The notes beneath the pieces are model-generated. The model was not told the DNA's origin and did no database searches. It saw nothing but the letters and a program-made list of their open reading frames with translations. Shown in pieces: positions 27,057 to 49,819 of a DNA stretch of 57,385 nucleotides (position 1 is the first letter of the stretch; each line of letters begins with the position of its first letter). The stretch comes from Alistipes sp. Its GTDB lineage: Bacteria; Bacteroidota; Bacteroidia; Bacteroidales; Rikenellaceae. The DNA is taken from positions 1-57,385 of the forward strand of contig JAFNXN010000037.1 of the NCBI GenBank assembly GCA_017379015.1, given 5' to 3'. A program made the position numbers and the translations under genes.

Positions 27057-27157
27057 GGAAAAAATTGGCAAAGGCGCACACTTTTTCATGTAATTATCAC
27101 TTTGGGCAGGCTAAACCGCCGTGCCACGCCTAAGAGAAAAGATAAAGCGACAAGGCG

Positions 27158-27231
27158 ACAGAGAGACATGAGCGATGGTCGCGGACGAGGACAGAGGGAC
27201 ATGAGCGACAGAGCGATGGTCGCGGACAAGG
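27158..27231. repeat. Two abutting direct repeats in the spacer upstream of glyS
   Basis: Within the 412-base gene-free stretch 26989-27400, two adjacent copies (27158-27190 and 27191-27231) share ACAGAG(A/G)GACATGAGCGA and GATGGTCGCGGAC. The second copy has 8 extra bases. No frame or known element explains them. Confidence 0.6.
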
Positions 27232-27251
27232 AGCGCAGTTATTAGGGAAAT

Positions 27252-27335
27252 TAGGGAGTCTAAGGATTTTAGTGAGAGGCTTGGATAACTCCGAGATCAA
27301 ACGCCAAACTCCCTAAAATCCTTAATCTCTCTAAA
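27252..27335. repeat. Imperfect inverted repeat, possible terminator of the BACON/LRR gene
   Basis: TAAGGATTTTAG at 27261-27272 recurs exactly in inverted form at 27313-27324, and AGGGAGT is present next to both copies. The element lies just downstream of the minus-strand lipoprotein gene and could end its transcript. The rest of the spacer shows nothing else. Confidence 0.45.
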
Positions 27336-27400
27336 CTCCTTAAATGCTTTCGTTTTTCACCTTCGCTACTGCCTATTAATGTGTCGCGATATGCCGCGGG

Positions 27401-29800
27401 CTAGTCATGAGGTCCACTGTGCGGCTCTCCGGGCCACCACCAGCCTACACCATGGTCAGTCCAATGCCAGTTACCATCATTATCACGCCAATAATCTGTA
27501 TATCTGCTATCATAATAAAAATAATCTATCTCAGCAAATATACCACTGATCTCACGCGTTATCCTATTATTCTGGCAATCAAGGCCCCTCAACGCCGTGC
27601 AGCCCGAAACATGTAAGGTGGTGAGTTGATTATAATCACAACTAAGCCAGTCCAACGCCGCGCAGCCCGAAACATCTAAGGTAGTGAGTGGATTACCGCC
27701 GCACTCAAGCCACTCCAACGCATCCAATCCAGACAATGATCCTCCGCCATTAAGGTTATTGACGTCAAGCCAAAGTCCCATAACACGTCCCTCGTCATTG
27801 GTTCCGACACCATACCAATCATTAAGAGGTAGATCGGAGCACCAATTATCGTTGCGCGTCCAGTTGTCGCCACCGGTATCTTCATAGAACTTAACCAAAA
27901 TATCGCGATCACTATTATCCTCGGTCTTAACAACAAAAGTTGCCTCGTCGATAATCGTGCCATCGCTTGCGTAGATACGAGCATAGAGAGTATGGCTCTG
28001 GGTTGCAGCACGCGTCGCGGTGGGCGACCAGGTAACGCTAACCATGCCCTTGTCATCACTGATAGCTACACCCTCCGAGAGCTCACCACTCTCAGTCTCG
28101 AAGACAACGGCAGCATCCTCGCATGCCCAATACTGTCCCGTAACTGGGCTATATGCCTCGACCATAAATGTAACATCGACACTCTCGCCATATTCAAGCT
28201 CCACTCCGCCCTGCGGACTTACAAGCGAAAGACGCTTGGGAGAGGTGGTAAGCGGCGTATCGTCGACAACATTAAAGACATCCGACTTCCAAACCTCCTT
28301 ATCCCAAAAACCAAAGTCAAACTTTAGTCCCATGCGCATATCCATGCCACTAAAGTACTTATCGGTCCAGCCCACATAGTTTTCGCCATCGGTAGAGACT
28401 CTAAAGCCTGCCTGAACCACCTCCTTAACGTAGGGTCGAGGCTCAAGCCACGGACCGGCAAACTTATACAAGCCTATCTCAATCTGAGGATAGTAAGAGA
28501 CCTTGCCGTGCATAGATGCCTCAGCCTTAAGGGTTGGATGATAGATACTCATGTGTGGTGTTGCCCCATTTATAGGCACTACACCACCACTCTTGGTCCA
28601 CGACAAGCCCGTCCTTAGATCCACGCCTAGAGCAACACCTCCCGATGCCTCAACCTTACCCTTAGCACCAAGCTCAAGATACTGACCAAGGTGCGTATAG
28701 ACAAGCAGATGCACAGTAACACCGCCAACCAAGAACGTAAAGACACCTGTGGGAATAACGTTATACTTCAGAATCCTATCATCCTTGCAAACAGCACTAT
28801 TCTCATACTTATAGCGTAGAAGCATATCGGCACCAACAGAGCCTGTAAGCACAAAACTGAACTTCTCTAGCTCACCAACCTTATCAAATATACCATTGCC
28901 CGCAGCCTCGCCAAATGAGAAATTAAAGACACCATTCAACCCAGCATCAAAGGCACACTTATCCCACCATAGACGACCTCCATTACCACTAAATAGTGTA
29001 TCTCCGTTGAAATTCGTGTGCCACGACCATAGATTGACGCTCTCTGAGTAGTCGGCACGCGTGGCTGCATCATCCTCGTTATAGACCTCGACATAGTTGC
29101 CATCGGCATCTAAATAGCCTACTGCCGAGGGGGCAATCACAGGACGACCATCAACACCCGAAGCGCGGGTATCACCCGTGGTCGACAGCGTAAAGCTAGT
29201 GTTGCGGAACAGGTTACACATATTACCCTGCGTAGTGGTCATAGTAACACTATTTCCCTCGGTCACAACAGACTCAACAACACGAATATCAAACTGATAG
29301 TCGGCAGGAAGAACAACTGCACTACCAACCTTAACATCGGGAATATTACCATCGCTATAGGTCACGGTCAACTCGCCTGTCGAGTCGTTGTATTGCGTCG
29401 CAGTGCCAGCATCGTCAAAGCCCATATCTACATAGTCGGTCTCAACCTTCGGCTCTTGAACAATGCTAATAGTTGCCTCTGCCGTGTCGCACGACACAAC
29501 AAGCACAGCACGGCGCTCCTCCGAGAGCTCATTATCCAAAACAGAGATCGTAACATGCGCACCATCATCACCGCTATCGGGAGTCACACTAACCCACTCG
29601 GGAGCACCCGAAATGGTCCACTCACCGCTACTCTCGATACTCACCGAGCAGCGCGAGGCTGTACTCGAAAACGTCAACTCCGAAGAGGGAAGCACCCTAA
29701 CATAGGGATCGTCATCGCCAGACGGGGAAATGACAATCTCGCAGCCGCTGAGTAGTAGCGCAGCGACAAGTGCGAAGATATGCTTTAGATAGGTAGTCAT
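27401..29800 (-). CDS. Surface lipoprotein with BACON domain and C-terminal leucine-rich repeats
   Basis: A 799-residue exported protein. The signal ends in a lipobox (ALLLSGC, Cys20). Residues about 38-112 form a BACON domain (LTFSSTASRCSVSIES, EWTISGAPEWVSVTP, SIVQEP), a beta-sandwich typical of Bacteroidales surface proteins. The middle (about 115-540) is unrecognised. Residues 545-650 look like an Ig-like domain (LVSPQGGVELEYGESVDVTF). The last 150 residues start with FYEDTGGDNWTRNDNWC and continue as leucine-rich repeats (TLDVSGCAALDWLSCDYNQL), a pair often seen together in Bacteroidota surface proteins. It ends in an aromatic tail (WWWPGEPHSGPHD). A role in binding is likely; no catalytic residues are visible. 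It follows radC by 20 bases. Confidence 0.75.
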   Translation of the reverse strand: MTTYLKHIFALVAALLLSGCEIVISPSGDDDPYVRVLPSSELTFSSTASRCSVSIESSGEWTISGAPEWVSVTPDSGDDGAHVTISVLDNELSEERRAVLVVSCDTAEATISIVQEPKVETDYVDMGFDDAGTATQYNDSTGELTVTYSDGNIPDVKVGSAVVLPADYQFDIRVVESVVTEGNSVTMTTTQGNMCNLFRNTSFTLSTTGDTRASGVDGRPVIAPSAVGYLDADGNYVEVYNEDDAATRADYSESVNLWSWHTNFNGDTLFSGNGGRLWWDKCAFDAGLNGVFNFSFGEAAGNGIFDKVGELEKFSFVLTGSVGADMLLRYKYENSAVCKDDRILKYNVIPTGVFTFLVGGVTVHLLVYTHLGQYLELGAKGKVEASGGVALGVDLRTGLSWTKSGGVVPINGATPHMSIYHPTLKAEASMHGKVSYYPQIEIGLYKFAGPWLEPRPYVKEVVQAGFRVSTDGENYVGWTDKYFSGMDMRMGLKFDFGFWDKEVWKSDVFNVVDDTPLTTSPKRLSLVSPQGGVELEYGESVDVTFMVEAYSPVTGQYWACEDAAVVFETESGELSEGVAISDDKGMVSVTWSPTATRAATQSHTLYARIYASDGTIIDEATFVVKTEDNSDRDILVKFYEDTGGDNWTRNDNWCSDLPLNDWYGVGTNDEGRVMGLWLDVNNLNGGGSLSGLDALEWLECGGNPLTTLDVSGCAALDWLSCDYNQLTTLHVSGCTALRGLDCQNNRITREISGIFAEIDYFYYDSRYTDYWRDNDGNWHWTDHGVGWWWPGEPHSGPHD

Positions 29801-39873: not shown

Positions 39874-41901
39874 TTACAACCATCCGCCATTATCGTTAGC
39901 GTCACGCACAACGAGAACAACCTCCTTCTCCATGAGCTTACCACCTGTTGTGTTACCACCGCCGACCTTATCGCCACCAGCGATATACTTAACAGTGATC
40001 ACGCCGATACCTGGCTTCTTACATGTGATGTAGAGATTGTTGTTGAAGAAGTCGATCTTTGCGTCCAAATTCTTCTTAACATCCTCAGGAAGGACAAACT
40101 CCTTCGACAATGTTACATCAACGCCTGTATGGCCGAGGTAGTCACCTACGTCGAGCTTGAGCTCCTCACCAGTGATAATAGGCACACATACTGCACCGCG
40201 AAGCGACATGATAGCGAGTGTCGCATCGAGCTTACCAGTACCCATCTTACCCTTGAATGGATCAAGCGACCACTCATAAGGACGGTTTGTCTGATAGTGG
40301 AAACATGTCTTAGTACCCTTAAGGTCTACGTCGATGTTACGTACTGACGATGTAAGGATCTCATAGAGCTCTGTGTTAGTGAGCTTAATACCATTCTCAA
40401 CAGCGTAAGAGAGCACAAGGGCAGCTACACCAGATACGTGAGGACATGCCATCGACGTACCACACATATAACCATAATCATCACCAAAGGGAAGACCAGT
40501 ATAAGGGTCTACAGTCTCAGCTGGCACTGTTGATAGCACACCGCCATACTCTACCCATCTACCATTCACCACTGAATCGTCACCACCAGGAGCCGAAAGG
40601 TTACAGCCAAGGCCGTAACATGTGTATGTAGTAGGAAGACCATCAGCAGAATAGGCTGCTACAGAGAGCCACTCGTTGTAGGCACCAGGGTAGTTTGAAG
40701 ATGGCTTACCATCGTTACCAGCAGCGAAGATGATCACACCACCAGTCATTGCCGAGCAGTTGCTCTTCGACATGAAATAGCGCATAGCGTCAAGCTCAAC
40801 GCCGAATGACATAGCAAACGCACCATCAGTGAGCTGACCAACACTGTCCTGTGGAAAACCCCATGAGTTCTGAAGCACCGATGCACCCATATCTGCAGCA
40901 TACATGATACCCTTAGCAGTATTAGCCAATGTAGATTGATCATCACCATCGAAGATCTGGATAGACATGATGCGAGCACCATTGCCCGAGCCATCACCAC
41001 CAGCAACACCACAAACACCAAAACCATTGTTGTTAACAGCTGCAACTGTACCAGCTACGTGGGTACCATGACCTGTATCGCCCTCACGTGCCCAAGTAAT
41101 ATAACCATTCTGCTTTGTTGCATTAAGACCATAAATATCGTCAATGTAGCCATTGCCATCATCGTCAACGCCTTCTACACCATCTGCCTCCTTAATGTTT
41201 GTCCACATGTTAGCCTCAAGGTCGACGTGATCATACTTCACACCCTCGTCAACCACTGCAACGATAACCTCTGGGTTACCTGTGGTGAACTTCCAAGCAC
41301 CAAACGCACCAATATCCTCACCCTTCTTAGCCTCGTAGAAGTACTGTCGGTTACCGATATTGTTGTAGTGCCACTGGAGCTCGAGCATAGTATCGTCGAA
41401 TGGAAGCTCGTCAGAGTTGGCACGTGTAGCAAATGTCTGATCTACAGGCATAAACTTCACGTCAGGACGCTTAAGAAGAGTAGAATACTGCACACGCTCG
41501 ATCTCAGGCACTGCTGAGAACTTCTCAGCCGCAGCCTCGAGGTTTTCATCGTCGTCGAAGCTAACAACGAACCAACGGTGAAGGCCCATATCACGCTTAG
41601 CCTCAGCGTCGATAATCATATTAAACACTGGCTCAACAGAGTGCGCACCAAGCTCAATAGCCAAAGCATCGAGCTGCGCGCTACCCGAGCGAGTAACAGC
41701 CTCAGGGTTTGACCATGCCTCAGCGGTAGCCTCGTCTACGTAGAGGATAAGCTCGCCAGCCTGAGCCTCCTCAGCGGTGTTGATAATCTTCTTAGCAGAA
41801 CTTGCAACCTGCTGATCAGCTCCCTCGACAGTTGGATCCTGAACGCACGATGCAGCAAAGAGTGCTGCCAAAGCAAACAAAGATAATTTAACCTTATTCA
41901 T
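39874..41901 (-). CDS. S8-family subtilisin-like protease, lipoprotein, tandem paralogue
   Basis: A 675-residue secreted serine protease with lipoprotein signal ending at AASC (Cys19). The propeptide (GELILYVDEATAEAW, HRWFVVSFDDDE) and the catalytic domain match the 37110 gene. Triad: Asp218 (AVVDEGV), His278 (GHGTHVAG), Ser483 (GTSMACPHVSG); oxyanion Asn in FAAGNDG. The calcium-loop-like DDDGNGYIDD is also kept. The start at 41901 (MNKVKLSLFAL) aligns with the paralogue's MNRTKLLLLAL; an in-frame ATG at 41928 would add nine residues and lie only about 8 bases after the predicted transcription start. It is the first gene of the three protease-lipoprotein pairs. Confidence 0.9.
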   Translation of the reverse strand: MNKVKLSLFALAALFAASCVQDPTVEGADQQVASSAKKIINTAEEAQAGELILYVDEATAEAWSNPEAVTRSGSAQLDALAIELGAHSVEPVFNMIIDAEAKRDMGLHRWFVVSFDDDENLEAAAEKFSAVPEIERVQYSTLLKRPDVKFMPVDQTFATRANSDELPFDDTMLELQWHYNNIGNRQYFYEAKKGEDIGAFGAWKFTTGNPEVIVAVVDEGVKYDHVDLEANMWTNIKEADGVEGVDDDGNGYIDDIYGLNATKQNGYITWAREGDTGHGTHVAGTVAAVNNNGFGVCGVAGGDGSGNGARIMSIQIFDGDDQSTLANTAKGIMYAADMGASVLQNSWGFPQDSVGQLTDGAFAMSFGVELDAMRYFMSKSNCSAMTGGVIIFAAGNDGKPSSNYPGAYNEWLSVAAYSADGLPTTYTCYGLGCNLSAPGGDDSVVNGRWVEYGGVLSTVPAETVDPYTGLPFGDDYGYMCGTSMACPHVSGVAALVLSYAVENGIKLTNTELYEILTSSVRNIDVDLKGTKTCFHYQTNRPYEWSLDPFKGKMGTGKLDATLAIMSLRGAVCVPIITGEELKLDVGDYLGHTGVDVTLSKEFVLPEDVKKNLDAKIDFFNNNLYITCKKPGIGVITVKYIAGGDKVGGGNTTGGKLMEKEVVLVVRDANDNGGWL

Positions 41902-41942
41902 AGTTATTAAAAAATTAAAAATATTCACATTCTCTCACGCTA

Positions 41943-41950
41943 CAAATATA
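41943..41950 (-). promoter_or_regulatory. Predicted -7 box of the first subtilase gene
   Basis: TATATTTG on the minus strand, 41 bases before the preferred start at 41901. A TTG lies further upstream at a slightly long distance (23 bases). Confidence 0.5.
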
Positions 41951-42029: not shown

Positions 42030-42168
42030 CGAGAACCTCGATTGAGGGTGATTTAGGGTTGTTCGCAGCTAAGCTGCTAAGGGTAGAACGCAGCTAACGC
42101 TGCTAAAGGGTCGGGCGAGAGCTGAAGCTCTCTAAAGAGAAGTGCGCAGCTAACGCTGCTAAAGGGAA
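42030..42168. repeat. Series of unlike hairpins joined by CTAAGGG/CTAAAGGG
   Basis: Left of the 27-bp array lie several short hairpins: CCTCgattGAGG, GCAGCtaaGCTGC, GCAGCtaacGCTGC (twice, within 22-bp near-identical repeats) and GAGAGCtgaaGCTCTC. Most are followed directly by TAAGGG, TAAAGGG or a variant (TTTAGGG, TAAAGAG). The arms differ in sequence, but the layout of hairpin plus TAAAGGG is shared with the main array in inverted form. Confidence 0.7.
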
Positions 42169-42183
42169 AAACACTTAGCACCT

Positions 42184-42426
42184 CAAGGCGTGAGCCACCC
42201 TTTAGTGCCGCAAGGCGCGAGCCACCCTTTAGTGCCGCAAGGCACGAGCCACCCTTTAGTGCCGCAAGGCACGAACTACCCTTTAGTGCCGCAAGGCACG
42301 TACTACCCTTTAGTGCCGCAAGGCACGAACTACCCTTTAGTGCCGCAAGGCGCGAACTACCCTTTAGTGCCGCAAGGCACGTACTACCCTTTAGTGCCGC
42401 AAGGCACGAGCCACCCTTTAGCAAGC
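42184..42426. repeat. Tandem array of 27-bp hairpin repeats (eight full units and one partial)
   Basis: Eight complete 27-bp units start at 42184 and every 27 bases to 42373; a ninth at 42400 diverges at its end. Each has the constant part ACCCTTTAGTGCCGCAAGGC and a variable part of about four bases. Within each joint GTGCCgcaaGGCAC forms a 5-bp hairpin with a GCAA loop; where a unit has GGCGC instead, a G-T pair still closes the stem. Because 27 is a multiple of three, long open frames appear on both strands, encoding repeats such as LAALKGSSC; these look accidental. Confidence 0.9.
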
Positions 42427-42435
42427 TCTAAGCGC

Positions 42436-42473
42436 ACGAAAAACAAAGACCCCGCGGACAAGCCGCGGGGTCT
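42436..42473 (-). terminator. Terminator of the SusC-SusD operon
   Basis: An 11-bp GC-rich perfect stem (42447-42457 with 42463-42473) with a 5-base loop. On the minus strand it is followed by TTTGTTTTTCG. It lies 40 bases after the last gene of the operon. Confidence 0.88.
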
Positions 42474-42513
42474 AATGTTATCGGGTCGGATGACCCTCTA
42501 TCCTAAGCGATAA

Positions 42514-44850
42514 TTACTTAAGAGTTGCCTGAGCAAAATCGAATGTGTAGATAGGAGTAGCCTTGATAACAGGTGCGTACTCAACTGCAACACCTGCAAG
42601 GTCAGCCTGGCTGCAAACAACAGTCTCAGCAACCTTAGATGAAGCTACAACTACAGACTTAGACATTAGACCAGCAGCTGGTGCGATCTGAGTCTCAGGA
42701 GTGAACAAGAAGTAGTTACCAAGGAACTCACCAAGAGTATCAGTTGCGAGATCGTAACCATATACTCCCATAGCGAAGTAAGTAGTAAGCTTAGAGAGCA
42801 TGTTATCCTCAACCTCGAATACCATAAGAGCGGTAGGATCCTTAAAGGTATCATCCACTGAGCTCCTGTATGAATAAACCTGAGTTACCTCCTCGTTCAA
42901 TGCGCCATAGATCGTACCATACTGGTTTTCATACTTCTCGTAGCCAAGCTCAACACCTGTTACAGTGAATGTAGCATTCTCCTTATCGTACTCAGCATAC
43001 CACTGCGAACCATCGATATAAGAGTGAGAGAAGTAGTAGTCAGCATAGCTCTTACCAGGGACAACGCCGAATACCATCTGAGCCTGAGTAGTTGCATCCA
43101 TGAATGTGTAATCACCTACGTAGAACTCACCGTCGTAAGCAGGAAGAGTGTAAGGCTCGCTCTGATAGTCGATAGTAGTACCGTAGATAGTCTCGAAACG
43201 CATCAAAACTGAGTTTACAGTACCTGCGTTAACATTCACAGTACCAACCATAGAACCCTTCTCGCGAAGTTTTGGCAACCAAGCATCAGTAGCATCAGCA
43301 GCATACTCGCTGAAGAGCTCGTCAAGAGAGATACCCTCCTTCTCAACAGCAGCGATATCACCATAGAAAATCTTCATTGATGAGATAAGCGAACCATCAG
43401 CAGTGATCTTTACACCAATGTTGAAGCAACCTGGGCGACTAGCCTCCATCTCAGCAGCCTCCTCAGGAGCTACCAACTCAGAAGGAACACCAACCTGAAC
43501 ATCAACAGCTACCTCAGGCATCTCGCCAGCACCGTTGAAGTAGAAAGCAGTAGCATAAGCATCCTGAACGCGTGCCTCACCCTCAGCGGTATAAGGAACA
43601 GCTACAAGAGTGTAGTTACCAGGAGCAAGCTCTACCTCCCAACGACGTGTCTCAGCGTCAGACTCGAAGATAGTCAAATCCTTGCTACCAGCAACGATGC
43701 CGTCAACAACAGCAGCTGGATCAGCAACTACATCACCTGGAACAATGGCAAACTTGTAAGAAGCAACATCAGTACCAAGAGCGAAGTTGAATACAGCCTT
43801 AGCTACAGAGCCATCTGGAGAGATGTACATACCATCGTAAGCAGCAGAGATCTCGTAGCTTACGAACTCAGTACCTGGCAAGTAGAACTGCATGAAACCA
43901 GAAGAGTTACCATACTCCTCGTACGCACCAAGAAGCTTAGTGCTATCAGATGGATCGAGCGCAACAAGAGCAACCATACTTACAGGGAACTTGATGATGC
44001 CGTTCTCCAACTTGATAGGCTCAACGAAGCTACCATCCTCATTTGTGTGAAGATAGAAACCAAGACGAGCACCTGAAGCAATCAAGTTAAGTGAGATAGG
44101 GTTAGACGATGGAATAACGTTGTTAGGATCGGTGATATCGAACTCGATAGTGTGAGGCTCATCACCCTCCTCGATAGTCATCCATGCTGGGACACCACCC
44201 CACATTGCAGCGATATTCATCTTAGAGAATAGGTTGACAACGCGGATACGGTTAGGGTTAGTTGCATGCTTCTCGATGTCAACATAAGTACCAAGACCTA
44301 CGAAAGAGTCTGGCTCAGCAAATACATAGCACAAGCAGTCATCGAAGTAGATACCCTTAGTACCCTTGTCATCCCAAGCTACCCATGGCTCAGGAATAGC
44401 AAGTGTGAATACAGCATCAGAGATACCATACTGAGAAGCATTCTCCTGGTCGAGCTGCAAAGCGAACTCATAACGCTTACCAACCTCAAGATCAGCACCA
44501 TTGTAACCAAATACGATAGATGCCTCATCCTTACCAGCAGCGAACTGAACGCTTACTCTCGCAGCACCATCCTCGAACTCAGAACCCTGGATAGTGAACA
44601 AACCGCACTTGTTGATATCAGCAGCAAGAACGCTGATAGAAGCAGCCTCTGAAGCATTGTTACGCTTCACCAAGATAGTAGCCTCGGTGCCATCCTCTGT
44701 GAGGTCAACACGAGAGGTGCTTGGGAAAAATACACCCATTGTCGCATCCTGCGGACCAGGTGTAAAATCTGCATGCTCATGCTGACATGAAGCGAACGAG
44801 AGAACGCCTACAACAGCTAGAAGCAGACTTAAAAACTTAATATTCTTCAT
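42514..44850 (-). CDS. Large surface lipoprotein, third gene of the SusC-SusD operon
   Basis: A lipoprotein of 778 residues (signal ending LSFASC) encoded directly after the SusD-like gene. Residues about 35-130 resemble a Calx-beta or similar sandwich (TEDGTEATILVKRNNASE, ASIVFGYNGADLEVGKRYEFAL). Several later modules have the FnIII-like style of Bacteroidales surface proteins. No catalytic motif was found. In SusC/D systems such third proteins are surface ligand-binding proteins that hand material to SusD, and that is the likely role. I chose the ATG at 44850 (MKNIKFLSLLLAV), a normal signal start; an upstream ATG at 44865 would add five residues. Confidence 0.7.
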   Translation of the reverse strand: MKNIKFLSLLLAVVGVLSFASCQHEHADFTPGPQDATMGVFFPSTSRVDLTEDGTEATILVKRNNASEAASISVLAADINKCGLFTIQGSEFEDGAARVSVQFAAGKDEASIVFGYNGADLEVGKRYEFALQLDQENASQYGISDAVFTLAIPEPWVAWDDKGTKGIYFDDCLCYVFAEPDSFVGLGTYVDIEKHATNPNRIRVVNLFSKMNIAAMWGGVPAWMTIEEGDEPHTIEFDITDPNNVIPSSNPISLNLIASGARLGFYLHTNEDGSFVEPIKLENGIIKFPVSMVALVALDPSDSTKLLGAYEEYGNSSGFMQFYLPGTEFVSYEISAAYDGMYISPDGSVAKAVFNFALGTDVASYKFAIVPGDVVADPAAVVDGIVAGSKDLTIFESDAETRRWEVELAPGNYTLVAVPYTAEGEARVQDAYATAFYFNGAGEMPEVAVDVQVGVPSELVAPEEAAEMEASRPGCFNIGVKITADGSLISSMKIFYGDIAAVEKEGISLDELFSEYAADATDAWLPKLREKGSMVGTVNVNAGTVNSVLMRFETIYGTTIDYQSEPYTLPAYDGEFYVGDYTFMDATTQAQMVFGVVPGKSYADYYFSHSYIDGSQWYAEYDKENATFTVTGVELGYEKYENQYGTIYGALNEEVTQVYSYRSSVDDTFKDPTALMVFEVEDNMLSKLTTYFAMGVYGYDLATDTLGEFLGNYFLFTPETQIAPAAGLMSKSVVVASSKVAETVVCSQADLAGVAVEYAPVIKATPIYTFDFAQATLK

Positions 44851-44870
44851 AGTAAATCTCATCAATTAAA

Positions 44871-46550
44871 TTACAACTCCTTCTGCGCCTCCAATGCGTA
44901 AGATGGATCAGGGTTATTAACTGTAATAGCCAAGTTAAGGTCGGTCTCAGAACGTGGGATACAGTAGTTCCACCATGGAACACGACCCTCAGATACGTGG
45001 CGGCTACGCTCATCATAGTTAGAACCCTTGTAAGCACAGTTAATACCACGGTCAAGACGCTTCATATCGAACATCATAATACCCTCACCCCAGAACTCAA
45101 GGCTCTTGTTGAAGATGATCTCCTCAAGAACATCAGCATCAGGAAGTACTGCATAGTAATCGTCGCAACGGTTAAGCATGAAAGCACGCAACTTATCGAA
45201 AGCAGCAGAAGCACCCTGAGTGTGATAGATAGCCTCCATCTCGATGAAGTACATCTCCTCGATACGCATCAATGGGAGCGATACAGCACCTGCAGTCATG
45301 TTATCGTTACGGTTACCCAACGCAGGACGATACTTGAAGAAGATGTAAGGAGGAAGTGCATCGAACTCACCCTGAGACATAGATGTGTAGTTAGCAAACT
45401 GAGCATAAGTAGTCTTAGGACCCTTGATCAAGAGCTTACGGAAGTCATCATCGCGGATCTTGTCGTACCAGTTGCTAGGAACACCAGGCATAGTGTGTGG
45501 GAAGTAACCAGCCAAAAGCTCAGGTGAAAGGTGAGCAGGGTTCTGGTGAAGGTTACTTACTACAGTATCAGTAGAGCAGATCAATGCCAACATCCAAGAT
45601 GGAACAACAGTGTTAAAGCCGCTAGTGATGCTTGTCCACTCCTCCTTGCTCATGATTGAACCACCGTGAGCAGCGATAGCCTTCTGAGCATACTCAGCAG
45701 CCAAAGCATAGGCATCAGTACCAGAAGGGTGAACACCGTTAAGACCATCCTCAACAAATGCCTGGCCACCCAACCACATGTAAGCACGAGCATAGATACC
45801 GTAAACTACAGCAAGGTTAGGCTCAGAAGCGTTAGCACGAGCATACTCCTTCAAGCAAGCCTCAGCATCAGCAAGGTCAGCAAAGATAAAGTTGAACATC
45901 TCCTCACGAGTTCTACGTGGGTTGTTCTTAGCCATCTCCTCACCCTGCTCGCCGATGAATGACTCATCGAGGATAGGTACAGTTAGACCCTGAACACCGT
46001 CACCCAAAAGCTTATCGGTGTAAGCAGGGTTAGCTGGAGCCTCAGCATAGAGAGGGTCGTACAAACGAGCCAAATCGAGGTAGAAGTAAGCACGGTAAGC
46101 CTTAGCGATACCACGATACTTAGCAAAAGCCTCATCGTCACCTGCAATCTGAAGAATCTCGTTACAAGTACGGATCTGTGGATAGTAGCGGAACCAAGTC
46201 AAAGCACTAACAATACCAGTAGGGCCATAACCCTCACCCCACATACCGAAGTTGAAGTGGTTGTACAAAGGCTCACCCATGTTAGCAATCAACTTAGCCT
46301 CATAATCGTGCAACACACCCATAGCAAACATACCATAGTCAGAGTGTACACTTGAGCTATAGCACATAGACAACATGCTCGAGTGGATACCTGGGAGCAA
46401 TGCCTGAAGGATAACCTCCGTCTCACCCTTCAACAGCTGATCCTTGGTGATAGCTGTCTCAGTAGGGAAGGTCTCCTTGATACAGCCGGTGAACGCAACG
46501 CTCGATGCGAGGACAAGGGCTGTGATCTTAAATATCTTTGATACTTTCAT
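44871..46550 (-). CDS. SusD/RagB-family nutrient-binding lipoprotein
   Basis: A 559-residue lipoprotein (signal ending AFTGC). The SusD fold is a bundle of TPR-like helices around a ligand site. Marks are WFRYYPQIRTCNEILQIAG, YRGIAKAYRAYFYLDLARLY, and late YNYCIPRSETDLN-type end (WWNYCIPRSETDLNLA). It sits on top of the SusC-like transporter and captures the ligand. The gene lies 20 bases after the SusC-like gene and before the 778-residue lipoprotein. The ligand cannot be read from the sequence: it could be a glycan, a glycopeptide or a peptide. Confidence 0.92.
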   Translation of the reverse strand: MKVSKIFKITALVLASSVAFTGCIKETFPTETAITKDQLLKGETEVILQALLPGIHSSMLSMCYSSSVHSDYGMFAMGVLHDYEAKLIANMGEPLYNHFNFGMWGEGYGPTGIVSALTWFRYYPQIRTCNEILQIAGDDEAFAKYRGIAKAYRAYFYLDLARLYDPLYAEAPANPAYTDKLLGDGVQGLTVPILDESFIGEQGEEMAKNNPRRTREEMFNFIFADLADAEACLKEYARANASEPNLAVVYGIYARAYMWLGGQAFVEDGLNGVHPSGTDAYALAAEYAQKAIAAHGGSIMSKEEWTSITSGFNTVVPSWMLALICSTDTVVSNLHQNPAHLSPELLAGYFPHTMPGVPSNWYDKIRDDDFRKLLIKGPKTTYAQFANYTSMSQGEFDALPPYIFFKYRPALGNRNDNMTAGAVSLPLMRIEEMYFIEMEAIYHTQGASAAFDKLRAFMLNRCDDYYAVLPDADVLEEIIFNKSLEFWGEGIMMFDMKRLDRGINCAYKGSNYDERSRHVSEGRVPWWNYCIPRSETDLNLAITVNNPDPSYALEAQKEL

Positions 46551-46570: not shown

Positions 46571-49500
46571 TTAGAATGTCAAATTAACACCACCTGAGAT
46601 AGTACGGATTGGAGAGTACTGAGCTGTACCTGTACCACGAGGATCAAAGCCCTTACGTGCTGACCAATACCATACGTTGTCGCATGCTACGTATAGACGA
46701 AGAGCTGAGATGTTACCCTTGAACCACTTTGCAGGGAAGGTGTAACCGAAGTTGATGTTAGAAATGTTCAAGTAGTTGGTGCTAGTGAGGAAACGTGTTG
46801 ATGTAGCAGCGTTGTACTGGTCACCAAACTGGAAACGAGGAATGTCAGAGTTCTTATTCTCTGGAGTCCAAGCGTTCAACAAGTCAAGGTGGTAGTTCTC
46901 ACCAAGGCTGTTGCTGTGTGGAGATGACATGTAGCTAGCATAAGAACCATCGATTGTAGTACCACCAAGCTGGTAGTCAAATGCGATAGAGAGGTCGAAG
47001 CCGTAAGCGTAGAGCGATGTACCGAAACCACCGAATACAACAGGCTGAGTACACTTAGAGAGCTTTCTACTCTTGAGGTTACCATTCATCTTGTTCTCGT
47101 AGTCAGAAGTCTTGATCCACTCGTTAGAATTTGGGTCAAGGTACCACCACTGTGACTCACCAGTCTCAGGATTTACACCAGCGTAGTCGTAGATGAAGAG
47201 AGTACCAAGTGAAAGACCCTCACCGATGAATGTAGAGCCGTTGATGAAGCCCCAGTGACCGTCAACCTCCATATCCTTACTAGACTCAGGAAGGCTCAAC
47301 ACCTTGTTCTTAACCCAAGTAAGGTTAGCGTTCATTGACCAAACAACGTCACGAGTGCGAACGATATCACCGTTCAAAACAAGCTCGATACCAGTATTTG
47401 ACATATCACCGATATTGCTCCAGTAAGAAGTGTAACCAAGTGATGGAAGAACAGGAACCTGGAACAACATGTCAGATGTGATACGGTAGAAGTAGTCAAG
47501 GCTACCAGTCAAGCGATCGTTCCACAAACCGAACTCTGCACCAATATTAATATTAGTATTAGTCTCCCAAGTTACGTTAGGATTACCCTTCTGAGCAAAT
47601 ACTACAGATACGTTATCGTTACCGTCGTTACCTACAGCGTAGATATCAGCATAACGGTAAGGACCGATAGCGTCGTTACCCTGTGAACCAGCAGAAGCCT
47701 TAATCTTCAACGAGCTGAATACAGGAGCGTTGAACCAAGACTCACGGCTGATAAGCCATGCAGCACCTACTGACCAGAAGTTACCCCAACGGTGCTCTGG
47801 GTGGAAACGTGAAGATGCATCACGACGATAAGATGCAGATGCGAAGATACGACCATCGTACTCGTACATAGCACGGAAGAAGTAACCCTCGTTGATGTAC
47901 TCTGTCATGTAAGATGAAGAGGCCTTACCATCGATGATAGAACCGTTAAGCTCAAGGTTCTCAGTAGAGTAGATCTTAGACTTTGATGCGCTCAAAGTGT
48001 AGTAGCGAAGATCGTAAGTCTCGTGACCGAGCAATACGTCAAGAGTGTGCTCACCATTAGCGCCGAACGACTTGTTGTAGTTCAACAACTGCTGGAGGTT
48101 GTGGTTGTAAGTACGGCTGTGGATCTTGCTAAGGATACCACCTGTAGGAGCAAACTGACCATAGTATGGGTTCTGCATTGATGTGCTACGAGTCTCATCG
48201 ATGGTTACCGAACCATTAAGAGTGAGCTTCAAGCCTGGAAGGATAGTGAAATCAGCAAAACCGTTAACTGAGAATGCGTTACCCTCAGAGTTAGACTGGT
48301 TCAACCAGATAGTCTGCAATGGGTTGTTGTTTGATGCGCTGTGACGCTTCATACCCCAGATAGAACCATCACCGAAGTCGTAGATAGGCCACTGTGAATC
48401 GTACTTCTTACCAGGATAGCCGTGACCTGCCTGGTTCTCCTCGTACATGATGTTACCCTCACCATCGCGGATGTAAACAGGGTAGATAGGAGCCATATCA
48501 GCTACAGCAGTAAATGGGTCGGCAACGTTACCAGAACCCTCAGAATCTGTTGAAGCACCGTCCCAGTTGAAGTTAGTGTAGCTCATGTTACCACCAATCT
48601 TCAACCACTTCTTAGCCTGGTAGTCAGAACGCAAACGAGCTGTCCAACGAGACATGTGCGAACCATCAGTAATACCAGTGTTATCCAAGTAACCGAATGA
48701 TGCGAAGAAGTTAGCCTTCTCGTTAGCCGCAGCGATCGATACGTTGTACTCGTGACGGAATGAAGGATCGTACAAAGCATCCATCCAGTCATCAGGAGTT
48801 ACAGTGTACTCCTCGCCATTGTAAGTGAACTTACGGCCAAGAGTAGCGTTAGGGTTCAAACGACCGTTAGAACCGATAAGAGTCTGACCCTCAGGAACTG
48901 TGAAGACGTTGTAACCAACACCCTTAACATTGCCAAACAAATCATTGATAGCCTGTGAGTGAGCAGCACCAGCATCCATACCATCAGCAAGATTTGCATT
49001 ACGCAATGCAGCGTAGTGCATCTCGTAGTACTGACCTGGATCGCGAGTGTAGTCATAGAGCTGACGAGCACGTGTGTTAACACCCCACTTAGCATCGAAG
49101 TTAACGCGAGCGTCACCTGCCTTAGCACGCTTAGTGGTGATCATGATCACACCATTCGCACCACGAGCACCATAAAGTGCGTTAGAGGCAGCATCCTTCA
49201 ATACGGTCATGGTCTCAACATCCGCCATGTTGATATTGTTCTTATCGCCCTCGTAAGGCACACCGTCAACAACCCACAATGGATCGTTACCAGCGTTAAG
49301 AGAACCGATACCACGGATACGGATAGATGGCTCTGAACCAAGAGAACCAGAACCCTGTGAAGTCTGAAGACCCGCAACCTTACCCTGAAGAGCGTTTGCG
49401 ATGTTAGACGACTGAGTCTTTACGATGTCGTCAGACTTGATTGTAGCAGCCGAACCGGTGAACGCCTCCTTCTTAGCAACACCGAACGCCTGAACTACGA

Positions 49501-49819
49501 CCTCCTCGATCTGCTCTGAATCAGCAACAAGAACGACATCGATTGTCGAACGACCTGAAACAGCTACAGTCTGCGCCTTGTAACCAAGGTAAGTGAATAC
49601 CAAGTTACCATTGGCAGGAGCCAAGATTTCATAATAACCGGCAACGTCAGTAGATGTGCCTCGGGTAGTACCCTCAACAACAACCGCTGCTCCGATGACT
49701 GGCGAACCAGTGTCATCGATCACTGTACCGGTAACACGCTGATCTTGAGCAAATGCGCCGAAGCAGCCCAAGAGCAGAGTTGCAACCATTGATAGTACAA
49801 CTTTTCTAACCATAAGCAT
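46571..49819 (-). CDS. SusC/RagA-family TonB-dependent transporter
   Basis: A 1082-residue outer-membrane transporter. After a signal peptide cut near AFAQD there is a carboxypeptidase-regulatory-like domain (VTGTVIDDTGSPVIGAAVVV), then the plug with QIEEVVVQAFG (TonB-box region), ANALQGKVAGLQ and the SusC marks PSIRIRGIGSLNAGNDPLWV and LKDAASNALYGARGANGVI. The remainder is a 22-strand barrel ending in ISGGVNLTF. It pumps ligand handed over by SusD, using TonB energy. It is the first gene of a three-gene operon with its own good promoter. There is no neighbouring anti-sigma, hybrid two-component or SusR-like regulator, and no glycoside hydrolase. Confidence 0.94.
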   Translation of the reverse strand: MLMVRKVVLSMVATLLLGCFGAFAQDQRVTGTVIDDTGSPVIGAAVVVEGTTRGTSTDVAGYYEILAPANGNLVFTYLGYKAQTVAVSGRSTIDVVLVADSEQIEEVVVQAFGVAKKEAFTGSAATIKSDDIVKTQSSNIANALQGKVAGLQTSQGSGSLGSEPSIRIRGIGSLNAGNDPLWVVDGVPYEGDKNNINMADVETMTVLKDAASNALYGARGANGVIMITTKRAKAGDARVNFDAKWGVNTRARQLYDYTRDPGQYYEMHYAALRNANLADGMDAGAAHSQAINDLFGNVKGVGYNVFTVPEGQTLIGSNGRLNPNATLGRKFTYNGEEYTVTPDDWMDALYDPSFRHEYNVSIAAANEKANFFASFGYLDNTGITDGSHMSRWTARLRSDYQAKKWLKIGGNMSYTNFNWDGASTDSEGSGNVADPFTAVADMAPIYPVYIRDGEGNIMYEENQAGHGYPGKKYDSQWPIYDFGDGSIWGMKRHSASNNNPLQTIWLNQSNSEGNAFSVNGFADFTILPGLKLTLNGSVTIDETRSTSMQNPYYGQFAPTGGILSKIHSRTYNHNLQQLLNYNKSFGANGEHTLDVLLGHETYDLRYYTLSASKSKIYSTENLELNGSIIDGKASSSYMTEYINEGYFFRAMYEYDGRIFASASYRRDASSRFHPEHRWGNFWSVGAAWLISRESWFNAPVFSSLKIKASAGSQGNDAIGPYRYADIYAVGNDGNDNVSVVFAQKGNPNVTWETNTNINIGAEFGLWNDRLTGSLDYFYRITSDMLFQVPVLPSLGYTSYWSNIGDMSNTGIELVLNGDIVRTRDVVWSMNANLTWVKNKVLSLPESSKDMEVDGHWGFINGSTFIGEGLSLGTLFIYDYAGVNPETGESQWWYLDPNSNEWIKTSDYENKMNGNLKSRKLSKCTQPVVFGGFGTSLYAYGFDLSIAFDYQLGGTTIDGSYASYMSSPHSNSLGENYHLDLLNAWTPENKNSDIPRFQFGDQYNAATSTRFLTSTNYLNISNINFGYTFPAKWFKGNISALRLYVACDNVWYWSARKGFDPRGTGTAQYSPIRTISGGVNLTF

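Follow-up and report, generated by a model that had tools for sequence, protein, structure and literature searches.

Gene surroundings of the array

The array under study lies in an intergenic gap of the window, by which we mean the whole analysed stretch of 57,385 nucleotides from Alistipes sp. (contig JAFNXN010000037.1). The gap is bordered by two minus-strand genes: a subtilase gene (Peptidase_S8 by Pfam; 39874..41928) and a gene of 783 aa to which the Pfam search assigned no family (42514..44865). The latter comes after the Pfam-assigned genes for a SusC-like TonB-dependent receptor (46571-49819, minus strand) and for SusD (44871-46550, minus strand). Next to the array and outside the element, a terminator-like site of the upstream gene, with an 11-bp stem and a T tract, was predicted at 42447..42473 (minus strand) by a scan whose total of two sites does not stand out from its shuffles (mean 1.2). 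A terminator-like hairpin was seen by eye at the corresponding place in several congeners, both with and without arrays. On the other side, the promoter-like box TATATTTG precedes the subtilase gene (41943..41950, minus strand). We take it to resemble the Bacteroides -7 promoter box, and by eye similar DNA is present at the matching place in several congeners. The earlier note had placed the array between a terminator and the subtilase promoter, and this agrees with the predicted terminator-like site on one side and the promoter-like sequence on the other.

A head-to-head element of two arms

The 27-bp tandem array with constant spacers, as described in the earlier note, was recovered: TRF reports period 27, 8.3 copies, 94% matches and no indels at 42197-42421. 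We delimit this right arm, on the basis of sequence, TRF and the covariance models R2 and R1, to 42198..42421 of the plus strand. It comprises eight units of the plan CCCTTTA-GTGCC-GCAA-GGCAC/GGCGC-flank and ends with a bare CCCTTTAG core (42414-42421), the same CCCTTTAG being its invariant spacer. Six units match GTGCCGCAAGGCAC exactly (42232, 42259, 42286, 42313, 42367 and 42394), and the two at 42205 and 42340 carry the GGCGC arm. A degenerate first unit, CTTAGCACCTCAAGGCGTGAGCCA, with its core shortened to CTTA and an imperfect stem, was recognised by eye at 42174..42197 of the plus strand. It is followed toward lower coordinates by an A-rich centre of seven bases, AAAAACA (42167..42173), which separates the two arms.

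In the left arm (42081..42166, minus strand), three oppositely oriented units carry different stems, namely GCAGC-gtta-GCTGC, GAGAGC-ttca-GCTCTC and again GCAGC-gtta-GCTGC. Read on the minus strand, it follows the plan of the right arm: CCCTTTA, stem, loop, stem, GNNCTAC. In cmsearch, R2 matched 42081-42110 (E 2e-8) and 42137-42166 (E 6.5e-8) and R1 matched 42108-42139 (E 2e-6); the left-arm units were part of the set from which the models were built. A decayed outermost unit on the same strand (42056..42080) gave a partial R2 match with E 0.0067, and TRF likewise reports a weaker second array at 42064-42168. The 27-bp array is one arm of a head-to-head bipolar hairpin element. The opposite-strand array (42056-42166), the sister loci described below and their changing stems had been absent from the earlier note.

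The region folds better than 100 of 100 shuffles, with z values of -5.96 for plus-strand RNA, -4.02 for minus-strand RNA and -4.96 for plus-strand DNA; palindromes are expected to fold in this way whichever strand is read. Rfam covariance models at the gathering score gave no match over the array, and five weak sub-threshold matches all fell within 42438-42500, on the terminator side. Two other identities were discarded. A CRISPR is ruled out by the spacers, which are constant (CCCTTTAG-type) and not unique. As for a coding repeat, the overlapping ORFs of 115 and 107 aa are taken as spurious; in the right arm, three of six reading frames contain 5-9 stops and the other three contain none.

Sister elements in the same genome

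In the own assembly (1.71 Mb, 78% complete), CCCTTTAG occurs 25+24 times, compared with 6+5 times for the reversed control. Clusters with minus-strand followed by plus-strand copies lie on contig C12 at 44.7 kb and 58.4 kb, on C17 at 7.9 kb and 8.8-9.1 kb, and in the window, and a minus-strand pair lies on C1 at 2.1 kb. Their stems are GCACC, GCTCGC, GAGAGC, GCAAGC, GTGCC and GCCCGC, with a hairpin plan common to all loci. Fifteen isolated CCCTTTAG matches inspected by eye on other contigs of this genome had no hairpin plan. The 14-mer with at most one mismatch was found nine times in the genome, eight of these within the window array, and the ninth does not exceed what the reversed control yields (0+2). 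Between the two C12 elements (L017 and L018) there is a match of 178 bp with 90% identity that runs up to just inside the element edges, so that a composite element was copied. A genome-wide search, as proposed in the earlier note, does find the hairpin plan at other intergenic loci. That note had named a lack of a transcript, of copies elsewhere and of conservation in relatives as the outcome that would speak against it; the result was not fully of that kind, as copies occur at other loci and in relatives. Its view of the array as a structured, repeated element gains support from these copies and from the run of eight like units.

Distribution among relatives

Across genomes we searched with the pattern CCNTTTAGN{11,18}GNACTACNC. 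It matched in 10 of 180 genomes of the genus and was palindromic in six of them (G000 7+8, G035 31+37, G473 22+30, G492 14+20, G509 3+0, G433 0+1), the remaining four having single matches that do not pair, as judged by eye. With the covariance model R1, the carriers amount to 7 of 180 genus genomes, namely these six and G497. R2 returned the identical carriers among 268 genomes of the family, all of them in one of 22 genera. Both models were run with strict filters, and their match counts per genome stand for "at least". At the order level, the pattern was present in 8 of 393 genomes and palindromic only in the own genome. Among the matches listed, the carrier MAGs are RGIG4226 (roe deer colon), RGIG2147 (goat colon), RGIG6253 (sheep rectum) and SIG185; these we infer to be G035, G492, G509 and G473, respectively. 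A phage or virus origin was considered and rejected, with none of six pattern matches in viral contigs being palindromic.

On a one-gene tree (tRNA-synthetase, 30 best matches), the carriers need four changes, compared with a shuffled mean of 6.4, and 7 of 500 shuffles are as low. A single carrier clade is rejected on the same tree (p-AU 1e-7). Judged by this one gene, the carriers are clustered and do not form one clade, and draft assemblies may hide copies. In G035, the same element with its flanks was found on two contigs, C6 and C42 (L067/L094 and L068/L093), which points to duplication or strain redundancy. Among the papers listed, none describes this element as far as title or abstract opening shows, and those on Alistipes and Rikenellaceae were unrelated.

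Orthologous gaps, polarity and gene context

At the subtilase gap, G035 has a bipolar element as well, with the stems GCTCGC, GCGCC, GCACC and GCAGGC compared to GCAGC, GAGAGC and GTGCC in the window. The two adjacent C17 gaps with arrays are matched through their flanking genes in RGIG2147 and SIG185, although for the second of them SIG185 is matched by the left-flank gene only and the right flank in RGIG2147 at 49% over 146 aa; both are also matched in G433 by flank sequence, as judged by eye. In this second gap, the second unit of the right arm reads GCCCGC/GCGGGC in the own genome, GCTTGC/GCAAGC in RGIG2147 and GCAAGC/GCTTGC in SIG185, and the first reads GCTCGC/GCGAGC in the own genome versus GCTCGT/ACGAGC in SIG185. 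Across species, stems at shared gaps thus differ yet pair, and at the C17 gaps polarity and an A/T-rich centre are retained. Centres rich in A or T are also found in the sister elements on the own C12 and C17 and in RGIG2147, SIG185 and G433; those in G035 are longer and differ from the A-rich centre of the window.

The subtilase gap is plain by eye in G022, G446, G017, G021 and in the carrier G433. In G435, G436 and G454 (L183, L185, L186) other tandem repeats occupy it (TGGGGATTA, GTAGTCTCT and AGAGACAACAG/CTTTCGTC), the gap in G454 being placed by position, with its upstream gene unmatched by tblastn. It is as if this gap collects repeats.

For polarity we compared 67 clusters of at least two units each, from the own genome, from G035 without L091, L093 and L094, and from SIG185 and RGIG2147 among the stretches listed, with overlaps between stretches kept. 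Of these, 41 have minus-strand units on the left and plus-strand units on the right, 15 are all-minus, 11 are all-plus and none is reversed. No cluster (0 of 67) lies inside a called ORF, where ORF calling relied on length alone (110 aa) and any ORF located for the most part within a cluster had first been removed. Fifty-eight clusters have both neighbours, which are co-directional in 37, convergent in 11 and divergent in 10 cases; the other nine are at stretch edges. For all gaps of at least 60 bp the corresponding numbers are 98, 27 and 37, which by subtraction leaves about 61, 16 and 27 for gaps without clusters. Divergent gaps set against the rest did not differ between the two groups (Fisher p 0.24, approximate, as it rests on the subtraction), and a gene-end function was rejected for want of any enrichment of clusters at gene ends. 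The plus-strand assignment of the earlier note finds no support in an element of this kind, with sister elements among co-directional, convergent and divergent genes: since the element is bipolar, neither strand is "the" strand.

Stem pairing and covariation

To be independent of pairing, the main count relies on 257 units, distinct by context, chosen from five carrier genomes by their flanks alone. All five outer pairs are Watson-Crick in 238 of them, and the 1285 pair cells comprise 1257 Watson-Crick pairs, 8 G.U, 10 A.C and 10 others. Among the non-carrier loci L095-L174, this flank pattern gave 32 matches, none of them paired. With stricter flanks, the four named Rikenellaceae MAGs yielded 65 distinct matches, of which 63 show pairing of 5 bp or more, with nine different 5-base stem starts. 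In 30 other genomes, 0 of 30 matches did so and the longest flush pairing was 2 bp, these loci largely coinciding with the 32 above.

Covariation was calculated for 61 units of the 6/4 form (A1) and 47 of the 5/4 form (A2). It reached 0.465 in A1, compared to a shuffled mean of 0.089 and at most 0.176 for slid versions, and 0.601 in A2, compared to 0.186 and at most 0.128. Further pair types in A1 show no excess (10 versus 9.9 shuffled), and for pairs changed on both sides in A2, 43 of 500 shuffles reach the observed value. That all cells in A1 and A2 are paired is not independent evidence, because both sets were chosen for pairing; the flank-only counts are independent. Among 242 unique units, the stem has 5 or 6 bp in 213 and 7 bp in 29. 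The flank letters C, T, A and C are kept in 239, 208, 228 and 237 of these units, figures that lean upward, as 40 of 362 rows, namely those with fewer than three of five flank letters or at a stretch end, had been removed beforehand. Units are spaced by 26-29 bp, regularly so in many arrays.

Loops and the question of DNA or RNA

Loops of three bases are present in 125 of the 242 unique units. Among 109 four-base loops on the unit strand, TTTA is the commonest and GNRA accounts for 11. If distinct combinations of stem and loop are counted on the CCCTTTA strand, GNA makes up 20 of 60 triloop combinations, compared with 3.2 in shuffles (at most 10 in 5000), the mirror loop TNC 2 versus 3.3, and GNNA 16 of 55 tetraloop combinations versus 2.4 (at most 9). 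TNNA, with 17 of 55, is as common as GNNA. GNRA forms 4 of the 16 distinct GNNA combinations (p 0.08 against one half, a weak test). When a C-G pair closes them, GNA and GNNA loops have unusual stability in DNA, and they are stable in RNA as well. Consequently, and because TNNA is equally common, the loop bias does not prove DNA. The hairpin of the CCCTTTA strand seems favoured, without clear marks of RNA, which is suggestive and falls short of proof. RNA is not favoured, since G.U pairs do not exceed A.C pairs and GNRA loops are a minority. The earlier note had proposed a plus-strand RNA with GNRA loops, for which these loop counts provide no support, and its statement that a G-U pair maintains the stem does not extend to a general rule for the family. 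More generally, covariation in a repeat, even one with GNRA-looking loops, need not mean RNA.

Comparison with known repeat systems

REP and BIME sequences share several features with the element: they are short, intergenic hairpins with short loops, often opposed with the GTAG side outward (HH) (PMC3733652, PMC6006769, PMC12306157), and one family can contain alternative complementary stems. On its other strand, a unit reads GTAG-NNC-hairpin-TAAAG, and the family is multi-copy, intergenic and paired in inversion (67 clusters, 41 head-to-head). However, GTAG-type REPs are described with GTAG or GTGG 0-2 nt 5' of the hairpin and a fully paired basal stem of length 7-20 (PMC6006769), and here the tetranucleotide is well kept but 3 nt from the stem, and stems are mostly of 5-6 bp. 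Stem length alone is a soft criterion; according to PMC3733652, most REP stems have 6-9 bp and those of one species 5 bp. In further contrast to REPs, the loop preference is on the TTTA-foot strand and not on the GTAG strand, and a gene-end bias is absent. No RAYT, TnpA-REP (PF01797) or Y1 gene was found in the draft assemblies of five carriers (own, G035, SIG185, RGIG2147, RGIG6253). Among 101 genomes of the genus, a set that may omit the carriers G433 and G497, there was one Y1/RAYT hit, in a genome without these repeats; this sole Y1/RAYT-like gene is L211 (G458:C20:13102-13458). REPtrons can be absent from some species (PMC3733652). We conclude that the element is REP-like yet not a strict REP, given its GTAG distance, its stem length and the lack of RAYT in the five carriers. 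REPs in Bacteroidota are not new as such: according to PMC6006769, subclass 2.4 of tnpAREP is abundant in Bacteroidetes, and PMC12306157 has a table of REP-like counts that includes three genomes of Bacteroidota. PMC3733652 names Bacteroidetes for CGTC repeats but not for GTAG repeats.

The nearest Bacteroidales analogue that we found is the BrickBuilt MITE of Porphyromonas gingivalis (PMC4596501), which is likewise intergenic, with tandem units in variable number (23 nt in BrickBuilt), long stem-loops, a limited host range and no Rfam match, and next to 10 of whose 19 copies terminators or polyadenylation sites are predicted (PMC4596501). In contrast to BrickBuilt, no leader, tail or terminal inverted repeats were recognised in the present element, and it has two opposed arms, one covarying hairpin per unit and some sites common to several species. 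A non-exhaustive look at the copies compared revealed no terminal inverted repeats, common ends or target-site duplications. The ends of IS200/IS605 elements are similar in that they form small hairpins, read as ssDNA, whose foot has a conserved tetranucleotide on its 5' side (PMC6006769). Here the tetranucleotide is TTTA, directly at the hairpin foot, and by analogy it might be recognised as ssDNA too. In contrast to IS200/IS605, no Y1 transposase was found in the carriers tested, the hairpins are many and in tandem, and the stem letters are free.

Interpretation

We see about an even chance that the window array is a copy of a dispersed, non-autonomous REP/BIME-like element acting through a single-stranded DNA hairpin. 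Two arms of CCCTTTA-hairpin-GNNCTAC units point apart around a short centre. The hairpin would be active in single-stranded form, either on the lagging strand or within a copying intermediate, and a trans-acting nuclease or polymerase would read its shape, the TTTA foot and the CTAC tail, and not the stem letters. Composite elements would be copied into new gaps, and units might multiply in place through slippage. The element probably does little for neighbouring genes. Against this REP-like reading speaks that the mobiliser (Y1/RAYT) was not found in the five carriers tested. Further points against it are that no target-site duplication or common end was recognised in the copies compared, that the carriers do not form one clade on the one-gene tree, and that two of the covariation measures do not clearly beat their shuffles. 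If it is correct, it adds a REP/BIME-like hairpin family to an Alistipes-group lineage, without a REP transposase found in the carriers tested and with strong covariation but no sign of RNA-type pairing.

The main rival is a neutral minisatellite with templated palindrome repair, in which template switching between hairpin arms during replication rewrites one arm from the other, so that mutation bias would yield perfect palindromes with drifting letters, and slippage multiplies the units without structural selection; we consider it unlikely, though it deserves serious weight. Published work describes how template switching homogenises the arms of inverted repeats (PMC8604942) and causes mutations at quasipalindromes (PMC7202029). 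Near-perfect Watson-Crick pairing without an excess of G.U fits the copying of arm from arm, and so do the local homogenisation seen in the eight like stems of the window array, the other tandem repeats in the corresponding gap of G436, G435 and G454, and the modules of G433 presented below, whose stems vary little and two of whose loops vary strongly. However, arm copying alone would explain neither the conservation of the unpaired flanks TTTA and CTAC, nor the lack of any reversed cluster among 67, nor the strand preference of the loops. Arrays at shared gaps with different stems across species make the choice between selection on shape and templated repair directly testable.

Somewhat more doubtful is a new, RAYT-less class of hairpins of which the shape alone would be inherited: an enzyme would copy and reprocess single-stranded DNA hairpins, reading the TTTA foot and the CTAC tail, keeping the arms complementary and rewriting the loop in each cycle. 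If true, it would account for the differing yet pairing stems at orthologous sites and for the near-saturated loops of G433.

It is improbable that the units form a binding array for a nucleoid protein, gyrase or a regulator, that is, duplex or cruciform docking sites that might shape supercoiling between genes. For REP/BIME of E. coli this has been proposed, and PMC6006769 describes the binding of IHF, Pol I and gyrase to REPs. The regular spacing in many arrays, the intergenic location, the head-to-head polarity and the conserved flanks enclosing a variable palindrome would suit such a role. However, a protein that reads sequence should fix the stem letters, which vary, and the role would have to be a dispensable one, as no more than 7 of 180 genus genomes have the element.

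Least probable is a transcribed structured RNA with GNRA-type loops, serving as an insulator, mRNA-end stabiliser or small RNA: the folds are very stable on both strands, the array adjoins a terminator-like site, the right-arm loops of the window are GCAA and part of the loop preference is strand-specific, but G.U pairs are not above A.C, GNRA loops are rare, the gene-context counts show no preference for gene ends, Rfam has no match on the array and neither transcript would include the array, provided that the terminator and promoter are as predicted.

Five-hairpin modules in G433

The genome G433 contains dispersed, similar modules of five hairpins (L249-L267). We examined 19 of its 23 dispersed R2 matches, of which L259 is cut after the third hairpin. 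Each module holds one near-family unit, CCCTTTA-ACGCC-GCA-GGCGT-GAACTACCC. Over 17 copies (without L256 and L259), diversity per hairpin is 0.40, 0.63, 0.11, 0.25 and 0.68 for the loops, 0.012, 0.008, 0.000, 0.034 and 0.065 for the stems, and 0.100 and 0.018 for two linkers. Two loops are therefore near saturation (0.63 and 0.68) beside stems at 0.008 and 0.065. The loop of the family unit itself is not hypervariable, being GCA in 16 of 19 copies.

Other repeats in the window

Another intergenic repeat patch lies at 27149-27343 of the window, where repeats of the type GACAGAG-ACATGAGCGA are followed by the opposed TTAGGGAGTCTAAGGATTTTAG and CTCCCTAAAATCCTTAATC. By eye, its CTCCTTAAA-type motif resembles a motif in the element centres of G035. 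In addition, a gene with a BACON domain (27401-29800, minus strand) contains in its 3' part a 63-bp repeat of 2.1 copies (27590-27721).
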